From Rhodothermia bacterium (lineage in GTDB: Bacteria; Bacteroidota; Rhodothermia; Balneolales; Balneolaceae), in assembly GCA_030427885.1 (NCBI GenBank), contig JAUICM010000002.1, positions 62,001 to 126,000 on the forward strand: a stretch of DNA of 64,000 nt, written 5' to 3'. Of this stretch, positions 27,170 through 37,549 are shown piece after piece (the first letter of the stretch is position 1; every line of letters starts with the position of its first letter). The notes under the pieces are model-generated. The model was given only the letters and a program-made list of their open reading frames with translations, did not search any database and was not told where the DNA came from. The translations under genes and the position numbers were made by a program.

Positions 27170-27903
27170 GACTAACTAATTTAAATGTAAATTTTTACTA
27201 CCCATATTTCACGAGTGAAAACCACTCCATCTGTTACATAAATAGTTGTTTTGAATATTCATAAATACAAACATCTACAAGATAATTTTTGCCCACCAAT
27301 TATTTCCATGCCCACCTCGCTTTACTCCGTGTGATATTGTTGGTTAATAAGAGCGCACAGGCGATTAAGTAGCCTGTGAGATTACCTCCCCGGCCTGTCG
27401 TCCTGAGCGAAGCGAAAGATCCTTCAATACCTCTCCTTTTGTTGGTCATTATGTATGTGGAGTACATCCTCATACCACGTAAGACCAGGTTCCCGGGCAT
27501 TCCTTACAAGATTCTTCCCTCCACTCACATTCGCTCGCTCCGCTTAGAATTCAAATCGCAAAACCTGTCCCGCTTGCGGGGCATTTGGTTTTGTGTAGAA
27601 TTCGGAGGATTGAATGCCCGGAAGCTGTTCCAGACGGGAGCTTTTGGTTCTGGAGCCTGCCCTGAGGAAGCTCAGGGTCGGCACAAAAGTACAGGTAGCC
27701 GTTGATCTGCTCCCATGCCACATTAAAGCTTACTGCCCCTGCAAAGATCCTGAATCGAGTTCAGGATGACGACACCCCTCCCCGCCATCCGGCGGTACTC
27801 CCCTCAAGGGGAGACTTTCTCTCAAATTTAACATTCCCTCCATTTACTTTCTCCTGCATTACACATATAATATACATATACACTAAAAGAAGGAGAAACG
27901 ACG
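27170..27903. other. Repeat-rich boundary region right of the island
   Basis: 734 bases without a supportable gene. It holds a family A fragment at 27397-27427 (GTCGTCCTGAGCGAAG), a palindrome CCCCGCAAGCGGGG on the minus strand near 27570, a full family A hairpin at 27747-27770 (ATCCTGAA...TTCAGGAT then GAC), and a G/C-block repeat at 27773-27815 with CTCCCCTCAAGGGGAG. Short open frames here are made of these repeats. The A+T-rich tract 27820-27900 is the umuD promoter region. Confidence 0.55.
27866..27895 (+). promoter_or_regulatory. Probable promoter and ribosome binding site of the umuD homologue
   Basis: TATAAT at 27866-27871 lies in an A+T-rich, near-palindromic tract (ACATATAATATACATAT). 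The strong Shine-Dalgarno AAGGAG at 27890-27895 is 8 bases before the ATG and fixes the start. I cannot identify a LexA box. Confidence 0.4.
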
Positions 27904-28412: not shown

Positions 28413-28519
28413 GTCATCCCGGACTTGATCCGGGATCTGTGAGGGTTCACAGCGTTGTTAGCATTAATACTCAATCAACGTATCACTCACTACAGATCCT
28501 GAATCAGGTTCAGGATGAC
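28413..28519. repeat. Composite palindromic element (family A pair) between umuD and umuC
   Basis: Two inverted family A hairpins face each other: ATCCCGGA...TCCGGGAT (from 28413, opening GTC) and ATCCTGAA...TTCAGGAT (ending GAC at 28519). Inner arms GCGTTG and CAACGT form a smaller inverted pair. The same outer-plus-inner layout recurs at 37085-37214. After it, to 28676, there is a G/C-block repeat (CCCCTCCGTTGGAGGGG near 28558) and the umuC ribosome binding site GGAGAGGG. Confidence 0.75.
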
Positions 28520-30110: not shown

Positions 30111-30266
30111 ACAGAGGAAGTTATCCAGAGCGGAGCAAAGGATCTGCACAAGGTTAGATGCTGATATTTATTCCTGCAGACTCATCGCTTCGTTCTGAGT
30201 GACTATTCTACCTTATACATATCACAGCGCGAAGGGCTGAACCCCTTCGCTTGCGTTCATGAGAAA

Positions 30267-30327
30267 AGTCTCCCCTTGAGGGGAGATGATTGAACGAACA
30301 GGTACTTTGTTCAATCCGAGGGGTGTT
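30267..30327. repeat. Dispersed two-hairpin repeat, family C, copy 1
   Basis: Hairpin one is TCTCCCC..GGGGAGA. Hairpin two is GATTGAAC (30288-30295) with GTTCAATC (30309-30316). A GAGGGGTGTT tail follows. Aligns end to end with 35962-36022. Confidence 0.7.
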
Positions 30328-33036: not shown

Positions 33037-35841
33037 TCACCCGGTACTCTGCATTGCAGCTGCAATTGCATTAATATTCAAAAATATCAACTCGGTCAGT
33101 TCCTCGCGTTCTTTATCTGTAGAAACATTATCCCATCTTTTCAACAGTTCTCTTTGAACAATATTGAGTGGATAGGTGAACGGATTCCTGAATTTGATCG
33201 AATTCTGAATAACCGGATTATGTTCAAGGATACTTGAACTTTCGGCTATCGTTGTGATACCCTCAAAGGCTTTTTCCAGATCATCATTTAACCTGTTATG
33301 GAAAGTAAGATCCTTCGGATCGTTGTAGATCAGTGATGTAGCCAGGTGCGTGCGGGCGATCTCACGTTGCGAGTTATTCAATACCGTGTAGAAGAAGGTC
33401 CATTCTTTGAACCATCGTTTAATGATCTGCTGTCCATCCGGATATTTGTCAAAGATGTATTTCAGACCTTCGCCAATACCATACCAGCCAGGAACATTAT
33501 AGCGAACCTGAGTCCAGGCAAACACCCATGGGATCGCGCGCAGGCTGTCAAAGGTAAGTGCACCAGCAGCTCCTCTCGAAACCGGTCGGGATGCAATAGG
33601 TAATTTACCAATGTGTTCAATAGGTGTGGTTTTGAAATACCAATCCCAGAAGTGCTCATCATCAATGAGATCCCGGTATGATGACATCGTTTTCGAAGCC
33701 AGATCCTGCATCATATCCCATTCGTAATCTGAATCACTGAGGTAGCCCGGCTTATTTTTCTGAGCCATTGTTACCTGAACCATGGCGTGTACCAGCTGTT
33801 CGAGGTGTCGGTGTGCAATAGATGGTAATGAATATCTGAATGAGATCACTTCTCCCTGCTCGGTAAAACGAATAGTTCCATTATTACTTACCGGAGGCAT
33901 CGCCACGATCGCTTTGTTCGACTGTCCTCCACCACGGCCTACGGTTCCTCCGCGACCATGGAATAATCTGAATTTCACATTATGCTTACGGCAAACCATA
34001 CCCAGGGCATACTGAGCTTTATTCAGGGCCCAGTTCGCCATCCAGTATCCACCATCTTTGTTACTGTCAGAATATCCCAGCATGATCTCCTGGAAATTAT
34101 CCCGGGCTTTGATCTGCTTGCTGAACAACGGATGTTCAAACATTTGTTCCATCAGGTCGTGGCTCGCCTCAAGATCTTCAATGGTCTCGAACAGCGGTAC
34201 AATATCCAGAGGTGTGGAGATCTCGCCTTCATTCAGTGACCACAAACCAAGTTCTTTAGCAATAAGCATCACTTCGAGCATATCGCTCACACCATGAGTC
34301 ATACTTATGATATAGCTGCCAAATGTATTGGGATCGAGTTCCAGCATATCGCGGATCTCTTCAAATACAGACATCACTTTGTTAGCCACTTCAGAACGCT
34401 CACTTTTGAACGGACTCAGCGGACGTGGATTTTCTAATTCCTTAACCAGTACTTCGATCTTCTCTTCTTCACTTAGTCCGGCATAATCTTTAAGCACTTT
34501 TCCTTTCTGAAGAAGTTCTTCTACTGTCTGCTCATGCAGGTGGCTGTGCTGACGTATATCCAGTGCCGTTAAATGGAAGCCGAAGGTCCTGGCACAAACA
34601 ACAAGGTCCTGTAATCTTCCCTGCTCACTGATTCCTTTCAAACCATTTTCGATCAGGCTGTTCCGGATCAGTTCAAGATCATTCACAAAGTCAGCCGCTG
34701 TATATTTCTGAGCCAGCTTCAGAATTGCATCTTTATCTTTTGATAAAACTGCTACCTGCTCATCAATATATTGCATCATATGCGTGAGCTTTCGTCGGTA
34801 TGGCTCCCGCTGATATCTTCGTTCATACAGATCGCTGAGTGGATTGGCTGTCTCTTCGTCGTGGAGTGAAGCCCGCAATGCATCCGATATATCAGTCTGC
34901 TTGTAGGATAAACTCAGATATCTTCTCAGGTGATCTAATTTCTTGTGATAGAGCTGAAGCGCGGTTTTACGCTGCTCCACCATCGTTTTCCAGGTAACTG
35001 AGGAAGTTACATTGGGGTTACCATCACGGTCACTTCCTATCCAGGAGCGGTATTTAAGTACGATAGGTATGTCATCGCCGGCTTCACCATAATAGGTCTC
35101 AAGAGCCATTCTGATATCGTTGTAGAGCGTCGGGATCACATCCCAGATGGTATGCGAAAAGAAAAACAATCCATTCTCCACTTCATCTTCAACCGACATC
35201 CGTTCGGCACGGACTTCATCTGTCATCAGCAATAATCTCAGTTGATTCTGCACTTCCTTCCTGCGGTACTTTTCCTCTTCCTGAGTATAAGTATTCTTGC
35301 CAAGGCTGCTTATCATCTCACTGATCTCATGCTGTTTGGTGAGGATACTGCGGCGACGTGCTTCCGTGGGATGTGCTGTAATGGTTGGCTGAATATCCAT
35401 GTTCTCGAACACTTCTATAGCTTGTTCGAGCGTATACCCAGCCTCTTTCATCCTGTAAACTGCTTCCAGAATACTTTCGTTGCGGGGATTCTCCGGAGTT
35501 TCTTCAAACTCGCGTTTTCGGTTGATCCTGCTTATCTCATGCTGTTCGAGGGAATTAACCAGATGGAAAAAGGTGGTGTAGATCCGCAGAAACTCTTTGA
35601 TCTCTTCTGCGCCCAGCCCTGATACTTTGTCGATCAGTTCCTGAAGTTTCTTATCATCGCCGTCATCAAGTCCTTCTTTAGCCATTTTGGGAAGATCCCC
35701 GAGAAGCTCGATGAATTCTTCGCCGTAATTCTCCAGGCTTATGGACTCCAGCTTTTCCGTTAATATTGTAATGTTCTTTGCCAGGCTTTCACTGATCTTA
35801 TTCTCTTCAGCGAATTGCCTTATGGTCGATTCCCATTGCAT
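33037..35841 (-). CDS. ppc: Phosphoenolpyruvate carboxylase
   Basis: 934 residues, full length. It carboxylates PEP with bicarbonate to oxaloacetate, refilling the TCA cycle. Motifs: TAHPTEARRRSI with the catalytic His (about 156), GSDRDGNPNV, GYSDSNKDGGYW, and the glycine loop FHGRGGTVGRGGG. The C-terminus ends in QSTG, where most bacterial enzymes end QNTG, the end that lines the active and allosteric sites. Cytoplasmic and monocistronic; the ilvE start lies 61 bases after the stop. Confidence 0.97.
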   Translation of the reverse strand: MQWESTIRQFAEENKISESLAKNITILTEKLESISLENYGEEFIELLGDLPKMAKEGLDDGDDKKLQELIDKVSGLGAEEIKEFLRIYTTFFHLVNSLEQHEISRINRKREFEETPENPRNESILEAVYRMKEAGYTLEQAIEVFENMDIQPTITAHPTEARRRSILTKQHEISEMISSLGKNTYTQEEEKYRRKEVQNQLRLLLMTDEVRAERMSVEDEVENGLFFFSHTIWDVIPTLYNDIRMALETYYGEAGDDIPIVLKYRSWIGSDRDGNPNVTSSVTWKTMVEQRKTALQLYHKKLDHLRRYLSLSYKQTDISDALRASLHDEETANPLSDLYERRYQREPYRRKLTHMMQYIDEQVAVLSKDKDAILKLAQKYTAADFVNDLELIRNSLIENGLKGISEQGRLQDLVVCARTFGFHLTALDIRQHSHLHEQTVEELLQKGKVLKDYAGLSEEEKIEVLVKELENPRPLSPFKSERSEVANKVMSVFEEIRDMLELDPNTFGSYIISMTHGVSDMLEVMLIAKELGLWSLNEGEISTPLDIVPLFETIEDLEASHDLMEQMFEHPLFSKQIKARDNFQEIMLGYSDSNKDGGYWMANWALNKAQYALGMVCRKHNVKFRLFHGRGGTVGRGGGQSNKAIVAMPPVSNNGTIRFTEQGEVISFRYSLPSIAHRHLEQLVHAMVQVTMAQKNKPGYLSDSDYEWDMMQDLASKTMSSYRDLIDDEHFWDWYFKTTPIEHIGKLPIASRPVSRGAAGALTFDSLRAIPWVFAWTQVRYNVPGWYGIGEGLKYIFDKYPDGQQIIKRWFKEWTFFYTVLNNSQREIARTHLATSLIYNDPKDLTFHNRLNDDLEKAFEGITTIAESSSILEHNPVIQNSIKFRNPFTYPLNIVQRELLKRWDNVSTDKEREELTELIFLNINAIAAAMQSTG

Positions 35842-35961: not shown

Positions 35962-36022
35962 AGTCTCCCCCTGAGGGGAGATGATAGAGCGAATGGTTCT
36001 TTGTTCTATCTGAGGGGTGTTA
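35962..36022. repeat. Dispersed two-hairpin repeat, family C, copy 2
   Basis: TCTCCCC..GGGGAGA hairpin, then GATAGAGC (35983-35990) with GTTCTATC (36003-36010), then GAGGGGTGTT. Relative to copy 1 one base pair of the second stem has changed on both sides (T-A to A-T). Confidence 0.7.
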
Positions 36023-36090: not shown

Positions 36091-36474
36091 GTCATCCTGA
36101 ACTTGTTTCAGGATCTTACGATTCAACCTCTCAACGTTTTATACCAATCCTTTAACTGTGGATTATGCTGCTTTACCAAATTCCACTTCCACTCTTTATG
36201 CCATCTTTTCAACTGCTTCTCTCTTGCAATTGCATCGCTTATTGAATCATATTCCTCAGCATATACAAGAATATTCGTTTTATACTTCGTTGAAAATTCT
36301 GAACCCCTGACCTGCTTATGTTCCCATACACGTCTTGAAATATCATTGGTCACACCAATATATAATGTGCTTCTTCTGAAATTCGTAACCATATAAACAT
36401 ATCCCTTGCTCATGTTTGTAAGACTGATTAATGTACACGTCCTTACAAAGATCCTGAAACAAGTTCAGGATGAC
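36091..36474. mobile_element. Candidate GIY-YIG element bounded by perfect inverted 27-bp repeats
   Basis: The left end (36091-36117) begins GTCATCCTGAACTTG and the right end (36448-36474) is its exact reverse complement over 27 bases; each end is itself a hairpin (ATCCTGAA / TTCAGGAT). The GIY-YIG gene fills the interior, 5 bases from the left copy and 34 from the right. The same ends, without a gene between them, make up the composite repeats at 28413-28519 and 37085-37214. Mobility is inference; I see no clear target-site duplication. Confidence 0.5.
36123..36413 (-). CDS. Small GIY-YIG nuclease
   Basis: 96 residues, one GIY-YIG domain. The two signature strands are GYVYMVTN (4-11) and LYIGVTND (17-24), with the catalytic Arg at 27/28 (SRRVWEHK), Glu65 in AIAREKQLKRW and an Asn83 in KQHNPQLKDW. 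All catalytic positions are filled. It belongs to the short, stand-alone group (COG2827-like) that abounds in Bacteroidota and has no agreed function. It lies between inverted copies of the family A repeat, which makes a nuclease-repeat partnership worth testing. Confidence 0.92.
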   Translation of the reverse strand: MSKGYVYMVTNFRRSTLYIGVTNDISRRVWEHKQVRGSEFSTKYKTNILVYAEEYDSISDAIAREKQLKRWHKEWKWNLVKQHNPQLKDWYKTLRG

Positions 36475-36504: not shown

Positions 36505-37074
36505 ATGCATAACAAAACCCGCTGCGGATGGGCCGAGGGCCAGTTCGAACAATATGTGACTTACCACGATGAAGAATGGGGTGTACCGGTTCATGACGAC
36601 CGAAAGCATTTCGAGTTTCTGATCCTCGAGGGTGCCCAGGCCGGATTAAGCTGGGCCACCATATTAAAACGAAGAGATGGCTATCGGGAAGCTTTCGCCG
36701 ATTTTGATCCGGAAGTAGTAGCCCAATACGACGAAGAGAAAATTCAAAAACTGCTTCAGTTCGAAGGCATCATACGTAATAAACTCAAAGTGCGGGGAGC
36801 CGTTACCAATGCCCAACAGTTTCTGGAAGTACAAAAAGAATTCGGCAGCTTTGATCAATACATCTGGAGTTTTGTTGGTGGTAAACCCATTGTGAACCAT
36901 TGGAAAAACTTGAAAGAAGTCCCTGCCACTACTAAAGAATCAGACGCACTTAGCAAAGACCTTAAGAAGCGCGGATTCAAATTTGTGGGAAGCACCATCA
37001 TGTACGCTCATATGCAGGCATGCGGCCTGGTGAATGACCATACCGTGGATTGTTTCCGGTATGGGGAGGTTTAG
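36505..37074 (+). CDS. tag: DNA-3-methyladenine glycosylase I
   Basis: 189 residues, full length. It removes 3-methyladenine from alkylated DNA. Family features: RCGWAEGQFEQYVTYHDEEWG at the start (zinc Cys and His), the base-pocket residues FEFLILEGAQAGLSWATIL, and the C-terminal zinc-binding GLVNDHTVDCFR. The helix-hairpin-helix glycosylase core is intact. It starts 30 bases after the right end of the GIY-YIG element and reads away from it. Confidence 0.96.
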   Translation: MHNKTRCGWAEGQFEQYVTYHDEEWGVPVHDDRKHFEFLILEGAQAGLSWATILKRRDGYREAFADFDPEVVAQYDEEKIQKLLQFEGIIRNKLKVRGAVTNAQQFLEVQKEFGSFDQYIWSFVGGKPIVNHWKNLKEVPATTKESDALSKDLKKRGFKFVGSTIMYAHMQACGLVNDHTVDCFRYGEV

Positions 37075-37549
37075 TATTTCTTTTGTCATGCTGAGCCATG
37101 TGCTGAACTTGATTCAGTATTGATTCAGCATCTGTAGAGAATATAACGTTGATACATTTCCCAGTTAGAACAACGTATTACTCCCCACAGACCCTGAAAC
37201 AAGTTCAGGGTGACGACTATAAGTTGTTATTCCTGAAACCACACTTCCACAGTTTCCCTCGTCGCGTAGCTCTGCTGGGTGATGCCCTCCGGAAGCCTGC
37301 CTTTGTCGGCAGACAGACTCCTGCTTCCATTCCGGTGAACCTTTTTCAGGTTTCTCGCCTCACAAAGTCCTGCGCCCCCTTTATCCCCTTCCGCCAGCTG
37401 GAGGGGAAGCTCTTCAAACTATTTTCTTGTTCCTCAATTTCTATCCACGTTCTCAGAATGACTTCGAATTCCAGCCCTGCTTGGAGGTCTGAAATTGCTA
37501 TCTTAAGCGAAACATTTATCAAGACGAATCGTGATCCAATCCGCTAAAT
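37075..37549. other. Repeat-filled intergenic region
   Basis: 475 bases without a supportable gene. It contains the composite family A element listed next, a GCCTGCC...GGCAGAC hairpin near 37292-37313, and a G/C-block repeat with CCCCTTCCGCCAGCTGGAGGGG near 37384-37407 resembling those near 28558. A 132-codon open frame across it is made of these repeats. Confidence 0.55.
37085..37214. repeat. Composite palindromic element, family A
   Basis: A left unit opening GTCATGCTGA faces a right unit CCCTGAAACAAGTTCAGGG ending GTGAC. Inner arms AACGTTG (from 37145) and CAACGT (37171-37176) match those of the element at 28413-28519. Confidence 0.7.

Follow-up and report, generated by a model that had tools for sequence, protein, structure and literature searches.

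The Ssn family of GIY-YIG nucleases, said to have been described in Nature Communications in 2025, reportedly cuts only single-stranded DNA at repeats (NTS) and modulates transformation in Neisseria meningitidis. That system combines a small GIY-YIG enzyme with a multicopy palindromic repeat, a link to transformation and many homologues that each have their own sequence, and the unit analyzed here appears to share these features. REPIN/RAYT systems offer a second comparison: there a nuclease gene lies between palindromes that are dispersed as pairs, and enzyme and repeat are cognate. The RAYT enzyme is a Y1 (HUH) tyrosine transposase, and its palindromes carry a GTAG tag. A further superfamily, the CGTC-tagged REPs, has a CGTC head, an 8-bp stem beginning with AT, a 5-nt loop and a short tail, and its members form outward-facing dimers with spacers of 20–100 bp (Di Nocera et al., 2013; PMC3733652). 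In 2013, this class was reported without an associated dedicated transposase (PMC3733652).

Here, we analyzed a window of 64,000 nucleotides (the whole stretch of DNA presented above) in which a GIY-YIG gene lies between two inverted REPs. Comparison with homologues in other genomes revealed that the association between gene and palindrome is real, general and specific. No earlier link between GIY-YIG genes and REPs was found in the literature searched.

A GIY-YIG nuclease gene between two outward-facing REPs

The unit occupies positions 36091–36474 of the window. Its two arms, at 36091–36117 on the forward strand and 36448–36474 on the reverse strand, are 27 nt long, 100% complementary and 330 bases apart, and between them lies a gene of 96 residues on the reverse strand (36123–36413). 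The sequence-only reading had described the arms as exact reverse complements located 5 and 34 bases from the gene, and these distances and coordinates were correct. The gene product matched the Pfam GIY-YIG family (PF01541, E=2e-15). The catalytic Tyr, Tyr, Arg, Glu and Asn of the GIY-YIG superfamily were invariant in the homologue alignment, and the window protein keeps all of the invariant positions (Y7, Y18, R28, H32, E65 and N84); its GIY-YIG fold is not in doubt. The nearest solved structures by sequence were UPF0213 GIY-YIG proteins (PDB codes: 1ywl and 1zg2; E=0.002 and 0.02), which are weakly similar and equally small single-domain proteins. The unit is bordered by a phosphoenolpyruvate carboxylase (PEPC) gene (33037–35841, reverse strand) on one side and a 3-methyladenine DNA glycosylase gene (36505–37074, forward strand) on the other.

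As single-stranded DNA, each arm is a hairpin (z about −3.4 to −4.2) that consists of GTC, an 8-bp stem ATCCTGAA/TTCAGGAT, a 5-nt loop and a CTT tail, and the unpaired GTC head is on the side facing away from the gene. A C precedes the left arm and completes a CGTC tag; because the right arm reads GGTC, the full tag is present on the left arm only. An Rfam search at the unit returned no known RNA.

The genome-wide count of the 27-mer, named as a check in the sequence-only reading, yielded 21 copies at up to three mismatches in the 4.15-Mb genome and 0 for the reversed control. The 17-nt core of the repeat was found in 85 copies, compared with 11 for its control, and several further GTC-tagged repeat families are present in the same genome. 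Within the window, a single REP matching the family of the unit in sequence lies at 27744–27770 (reverse strand), and a REPIN at 28413–28519 consists of two REPs with outward heads and a 59-bp spacer that holds no gene. The same layout recurs at about 37085–37215, where a second REP sits in the loop of the left one. The composite repeats that had been noted at 28413–28519 and 37085–37214 therefore turned out to be gene-less pairs of outward REPs, the left member of the latter being a REP nested in a REP. The sequence of this nested REP (37086–37133) was also seen in the downstream flank of locus L089 of the relative G016. Another palindromic repeat, AGTCTCCCCTTGAGGGGAG, was observed at 27798–27818, 30265–30298 and 35962–35993; one of its copies overlaps a weak match to the Rfam family whalefall-1 that falls below the threshold (21.4 bits, with a cut-off of 37).

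Judged by its sequence, the window repeat is a CGTC-tagged REP and a member of the published superfamily. It has the CGTC head, the stem of 8–9 bp starting from AT, the loop of 4–5 nt and the short tail, and, as in that class, it is multicopy and occurs mostly in outward dimers, neighboring REPs in the pooled loci being outward in 24 cases, inward in 7 and tandem in 12. It differs from the described repeats (PMC3733652) in that its tail is CTT rather than the usual CCA and that, in most cases, a GIY-YIG gene takes the position of a transposase.

GIY-YIG genes and REPs are paired across many phyla

To survey this pairing, we collected 60 stretches of up to 20 kb each around GIY-YIG genes of the window's genome and its relatives. 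The first hairpin scan demanded a near-perfect stem beginning with AT and missed many loci whose flanks held longer or imperfect REPs; therefore, we used a flank-alignment statistic with control genes. A repeat common to both 200-bp flanks was found at 89% of 75 loci but at only 5.9% of 628 control genes, and at 80 further loci from many phyla the corresponding values were 79% and 8%. The sequence-only reading had proposed looking for other GIY-YIG genes between repeats, and both surveys bore it out. GTC-tagged hairpins were concentrated next to the genes: in the related genomes, their density was 4.3/kb within 50 bp of the gene and 0.03–0.17/kb beyond 300 bp, and in the 80 further genomes it was 8.4/kb within 50 bp and 0.09–0.17/kb beyond 500 bp. 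A GTC hairpin was detected within 200 bp at 60 of the 80 further loci, on both sides at 41 of them, whereas hairpins with control tags were found within this distance at 1–7 of the 80. The tag TGG scored at 25 of the 80 loci, and these are GTC hairpins read from the opposite strand. Within 50 bp of the gene at these loci, 59 hairpin heads faced outward and 8 inward.

A gene tied to its repeats would be hard to maintain if most homologues lay away from repeats or if the repeats were as frequent where the gene is lacking. Neither was the case. Either a flanking repeat or a GTC hairpin was present within about 200 bp of 144 of the 155 homologues, a combined criterion for which the separate rates give a chance expectation of about one in eight, and the window-type REP was found in 0 of 30 homologue-free order-level genomes. 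The remaining 11 homologues had no detectable REP; two of these REP-less paralogues lack Arg28, and this loss of a catalytic residue is suggestive only. The window genome itself has two GIY-YIG paralogues that bear the motif described below but no REP (L085 and L086); both have lost Arg28 and one has also lost His32, and they are possibly domesticated or decaying.

Thirty-eight of 40 GIY-YIG homologues on viral-classed contigs (L271–L319) were flanked by REPs, and in records of a plasmid collection the pairing was seen, by the scanner or by reading the flanks, in alpha-, beta- and gammaproteobacteria, a cyanobacterium and a Spirosoma. The Neisseria gonorrhoeae homologue, which we take to be the published Ssn orthologue, sits within arrayed dRS3-like CGTC REPs; over its whole length, it shares 34% identity with the window protein. 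The pairing is not peculiar to Bacteroidota and recurs across many phyla.

REP type follows the nuclease

Flank similarity was next compared between nucleases of different genomes, with a null in which flanks were permuted among the paralogues within each genome. Nuclease pairs with at least 50% identity had a shared flank score of 5.7, compared with 1.6 ± 0.37 for the null (p=0.0005), although part of this similarity may come from a leader that travels with the gene. When the REP hairpins were considered alone, nearest nuclease neighbors carried REPs more alike than in permutations within phylum groups, and the same held across groups (p=0.001). At least two copies of the window-type REP were present in all nine order-level genomes with the cognate nuclease clade, compared with 2 of the 49 without it. 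Moreover, the same 24-mer was found beside homologues in Bacteroidota, Balneolota, Elusimicrobia and an alphaproteobacterial MAG (L194, L195 and L204, together with Bacteroidota loci), and an identical 24-nt REP in groups this distant suggests joint horizontal transfer of gene and repeat. The pairing is not absolute, because a second, dRS3-like REP type tracks its cognate clade loosely and occurs in some genomes without a close cognate nuclease.

These results show how far the resemblance to REPIN/RAYT, suggested in the sequence-only reading, extends. The layout, with outward REPs around the gene and around gene-less spacers, agrees with that system, as do the flanking of the enzyme gene by cognate REPs and their co-diversification. 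Membership of the RAYT family did not hold: the enzyme is a GIY-YIG protein rather than a Y1 (HUH) tyrosine transposase, and the tag is CGTC rather than GTAG.

The unit is absent from this site in relatives

The comparison of related strains that the sequence-only reading had called for gave a uniform answer. The PEPC and glycosylase genes are adjacent in 15 relatives, in each case with no GIY-YIG unit in between. The empty sites hold no REPIN, with one exception that carries a REP of a different type; in one relative, the aligned sequences had diverged too far for exact junctions to be read. In another comparison, one relative was found to contain two units about 95% identical in different surroundings, and their upstream homology stops a few bases beyond the REP. 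In divergent paralogues, too, the similarity extends to the outer edge of the REP, which lies about 62 bases ahead of the start codon. About a tenth of the listed homologues in relatives are interrupted by stops. The empty site, the near-identical units, the shared REP edge and the stops fit a mobile unit.

A promoter-like motif is shared with competence genes

Between the right REP and the start codon lies the motif TTGTAAGG-N16-GTCTTAC (36418–36448, reverse strand), which abuts the REP and ends 4 nt before the start codon. The genome contains 15 exact copies of this motif and 33 with at most one mismatch. It was found in exact form before 29 of 58 GIY-YIG genes, and hence accounts for only about half of them, compared with 3 of 810 other ORFs. 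When up to one mismatch was allowed, 17 of 30 comEC genes and 16 of 30 comM genes in the relatives were preceded by the motif, compared with less than 1% for shuffled motifs. The genes downstream of the motif include GIY-YIG paralogues, comEC, comM, radC, ssb and recQ (ComM, RadC, ComEC, SSB and RecQ were identified via Pfam), as well as an integron-type tyrosine recombinase, Y1 transposases, several four-helix-bundle genes, DUF559 nucleases and a WYL regulator. The motif was not recognizable before the proteobacterial GIY-YIG genes examined.

We also considered a leader hairpin, TTGTAAG...CTTACAA. A promoter fits better, because all 15 exact matches share one length even though 12–22 nt were allowed. 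As comEC and comM are markers of natural transformation, the motif is most simply read as a competence promoter, which may belong to an alternative sigma factor. An earlier description of the motif as a marker of the competence regulon was not found in the literature searched.

Further copies of the motif accompany other small elements. At 27400–27509 (reverse strand) the window contains the relic of a GIY-YIG gene, in which a copy of the motif (27479–27509) is followed by a few codons of a cut-off gene start, MRMYSTYIMTNKRRG. Across the 33 motif sites, many small mobile genes seem to have latched onto the candidate competence regulon. Locus L084 (G000:C5:516892-536891) is an integron-like chromosomal array with at least 10 attC-like repeats (TAACGACCCGGCGTTTAAGCGG ... 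CCGCTTGAAACGCTTGTTA) near an integrase carrying the competence-like motif, and in the relative G023 two GIY-YIG genes (L091 and L092) lie between such attC-like repeats.

Alternative explanations

Several readings could account for a nuclease gene between palindromes. The layout would be expected of a REPIN/RAYT-like mobile system in which the GIY-YIG enzyme is the transposase of the CGTC REPs, nicks their single-stranded hairpins and inserts REP pairs elsewhere, with the gene-bearing unit as the autonomous element and the REPINs as its non-autonomous counterparts. Outward REPs around gene and spacer alike, the site empty in 15 relatives, the two nearly identical units of one genome, whose upstream homology breaks off just outside the REP, the homologues broken by stops and the REP copies that follow their cognate gene all favor it. 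However, GIY-YIG enzymes are hydrolytic nucleases for which strand-transfer activity is not known, no target duplication or junction was identified at the loci compared, and recombination or transfer on integron cassettes could account for the spread of the closest copies. We regard this system as quite possible while falling short of probable; spreading of the REPIN/RAYT kind by the enzyme is a plausible hypothesis. Homing would reverse the relationship, in that a parasitic nuclease gene with no host role would enter pre-existing REP pairs that its enzyme cuts and would not spread REPs. A gene in the place of a REPIN spacer, the cognate specificity of nuclease and REP, and the missing gene at the orthologous site in relatives are what homing predicts, but a homing endonuclease gene interrupts its own target and here both REPs are complete and unsplit. 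The homology between paralogues also includes the upstream REP and the leader, so that gene and REP travel together, and the relatives' empty sites hold no REPIN, apart from one site with a REP of another type. Homing therefore appears unlikely.

It is highly improbable that the REPs are ordinary terminators or mRNA stabilizers that surround a small, horizontally moving gene by chance. REPs are known to follow genes and may function as hairpins in the RNA (PMC3733652), and small laterally acquired genes are often intergenic; on the other hand, other genes of the same stretches are rarely flanked (only 2% of small controls reached the inverted-repeat threshold), the REP type depends on the nuclease sequence, and the heads point outward on both sides. 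A different objection concerns the motif, which might mark a DNA-damage or single-strand-DNA stress regulon instead of competence and make the nuclease a repair or stress gene. The presence of recQ, ssb, radC, the integron-type integrase and the WYL regulator among the motif genes speaks for it, since radC, ssb and recQ belong to the DNA-damage (SOS) regulons of Bacteroidetes (PMC8565304). We give this reading little credence: the motif recurs before comEC and comM across the order, and TTGTAAGG-N16-GTCTTAC is unlike the SOS motifs published for Bacteroidetes, CTAA-N5-TTAG and GGA-N5-TCC (PMC8565304).

A probable competence-expressed, REP-specific nuclease

We consider it probable that the unit consists of a competence-expressed, REP-specific single-strand GIY-YIG nuclease and its cognate CGTC-type REPs. 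According to this model, the sequence-specific nuclease and the REP palindromes would form one unit, and the gene would be transcribed from the promoter common to comEC, comM, radC, ssb and recQ. Sharing a promoter with competence genes, the enzyme would be produced at the time when imported single-stranded DNA is processed in the cell, and it would recognize and cut the REP hairpin in single-stranded DNA. Such cutting may alter recombination of the incoming or recipient strands, and the REP-flanked unit and gene-less REP pairs would probably be copied or kept at new sites.

If Ssn is as reported, the similarity to the Neisseria protein and the gene–repeat association seen in the flank and hairpin surveys make the window unit an Ssn relative in another phylum. 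It differs from Ssn in that several paralogues with different REP types occur in one genome, in that the window unit stands at a site empty in relatives, and in that the promoter-like motif before its gene also precedes comEC and comM. Our analysis adds that the repeats are CGTC REPs, that the pairing is broad and its partners co-diversify, that the site is empty in relatives and that the motif is shared with competence genes; the Ssn paper may already report part of the repeat identity and of the breadth and co-diversification.

A bolder version of the competence-nuclease model can be advanced only tentatively, and we are rather doubtful of it. CGTC REPs across bacteria would be spread by small GIY-YIG single-strand nucleases that hijack transformation: expressed from the competence promoter, they would cut REP hairpins in the single strands that occur during DNA uptake and so copy REP pairs, together with their own gene, to new sites. 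If true, this would define a class of selfish elements driven by competence, analogous but unrelated to REPIN/RAYT.

Significance

CGTC REPs have been without a partner enzyme since 2013; a general candidate can now be named, and its pairing with the repeats is specific and extends over many phyla. Through the shared motif, the nuclease is grouped with competence genes in a Bacteroidota-like order, and the motif provides a bioinformatic marker for the putative competence regulon of that order. The spread of small palindromes thereby becomes a testable question about DNA uptake.
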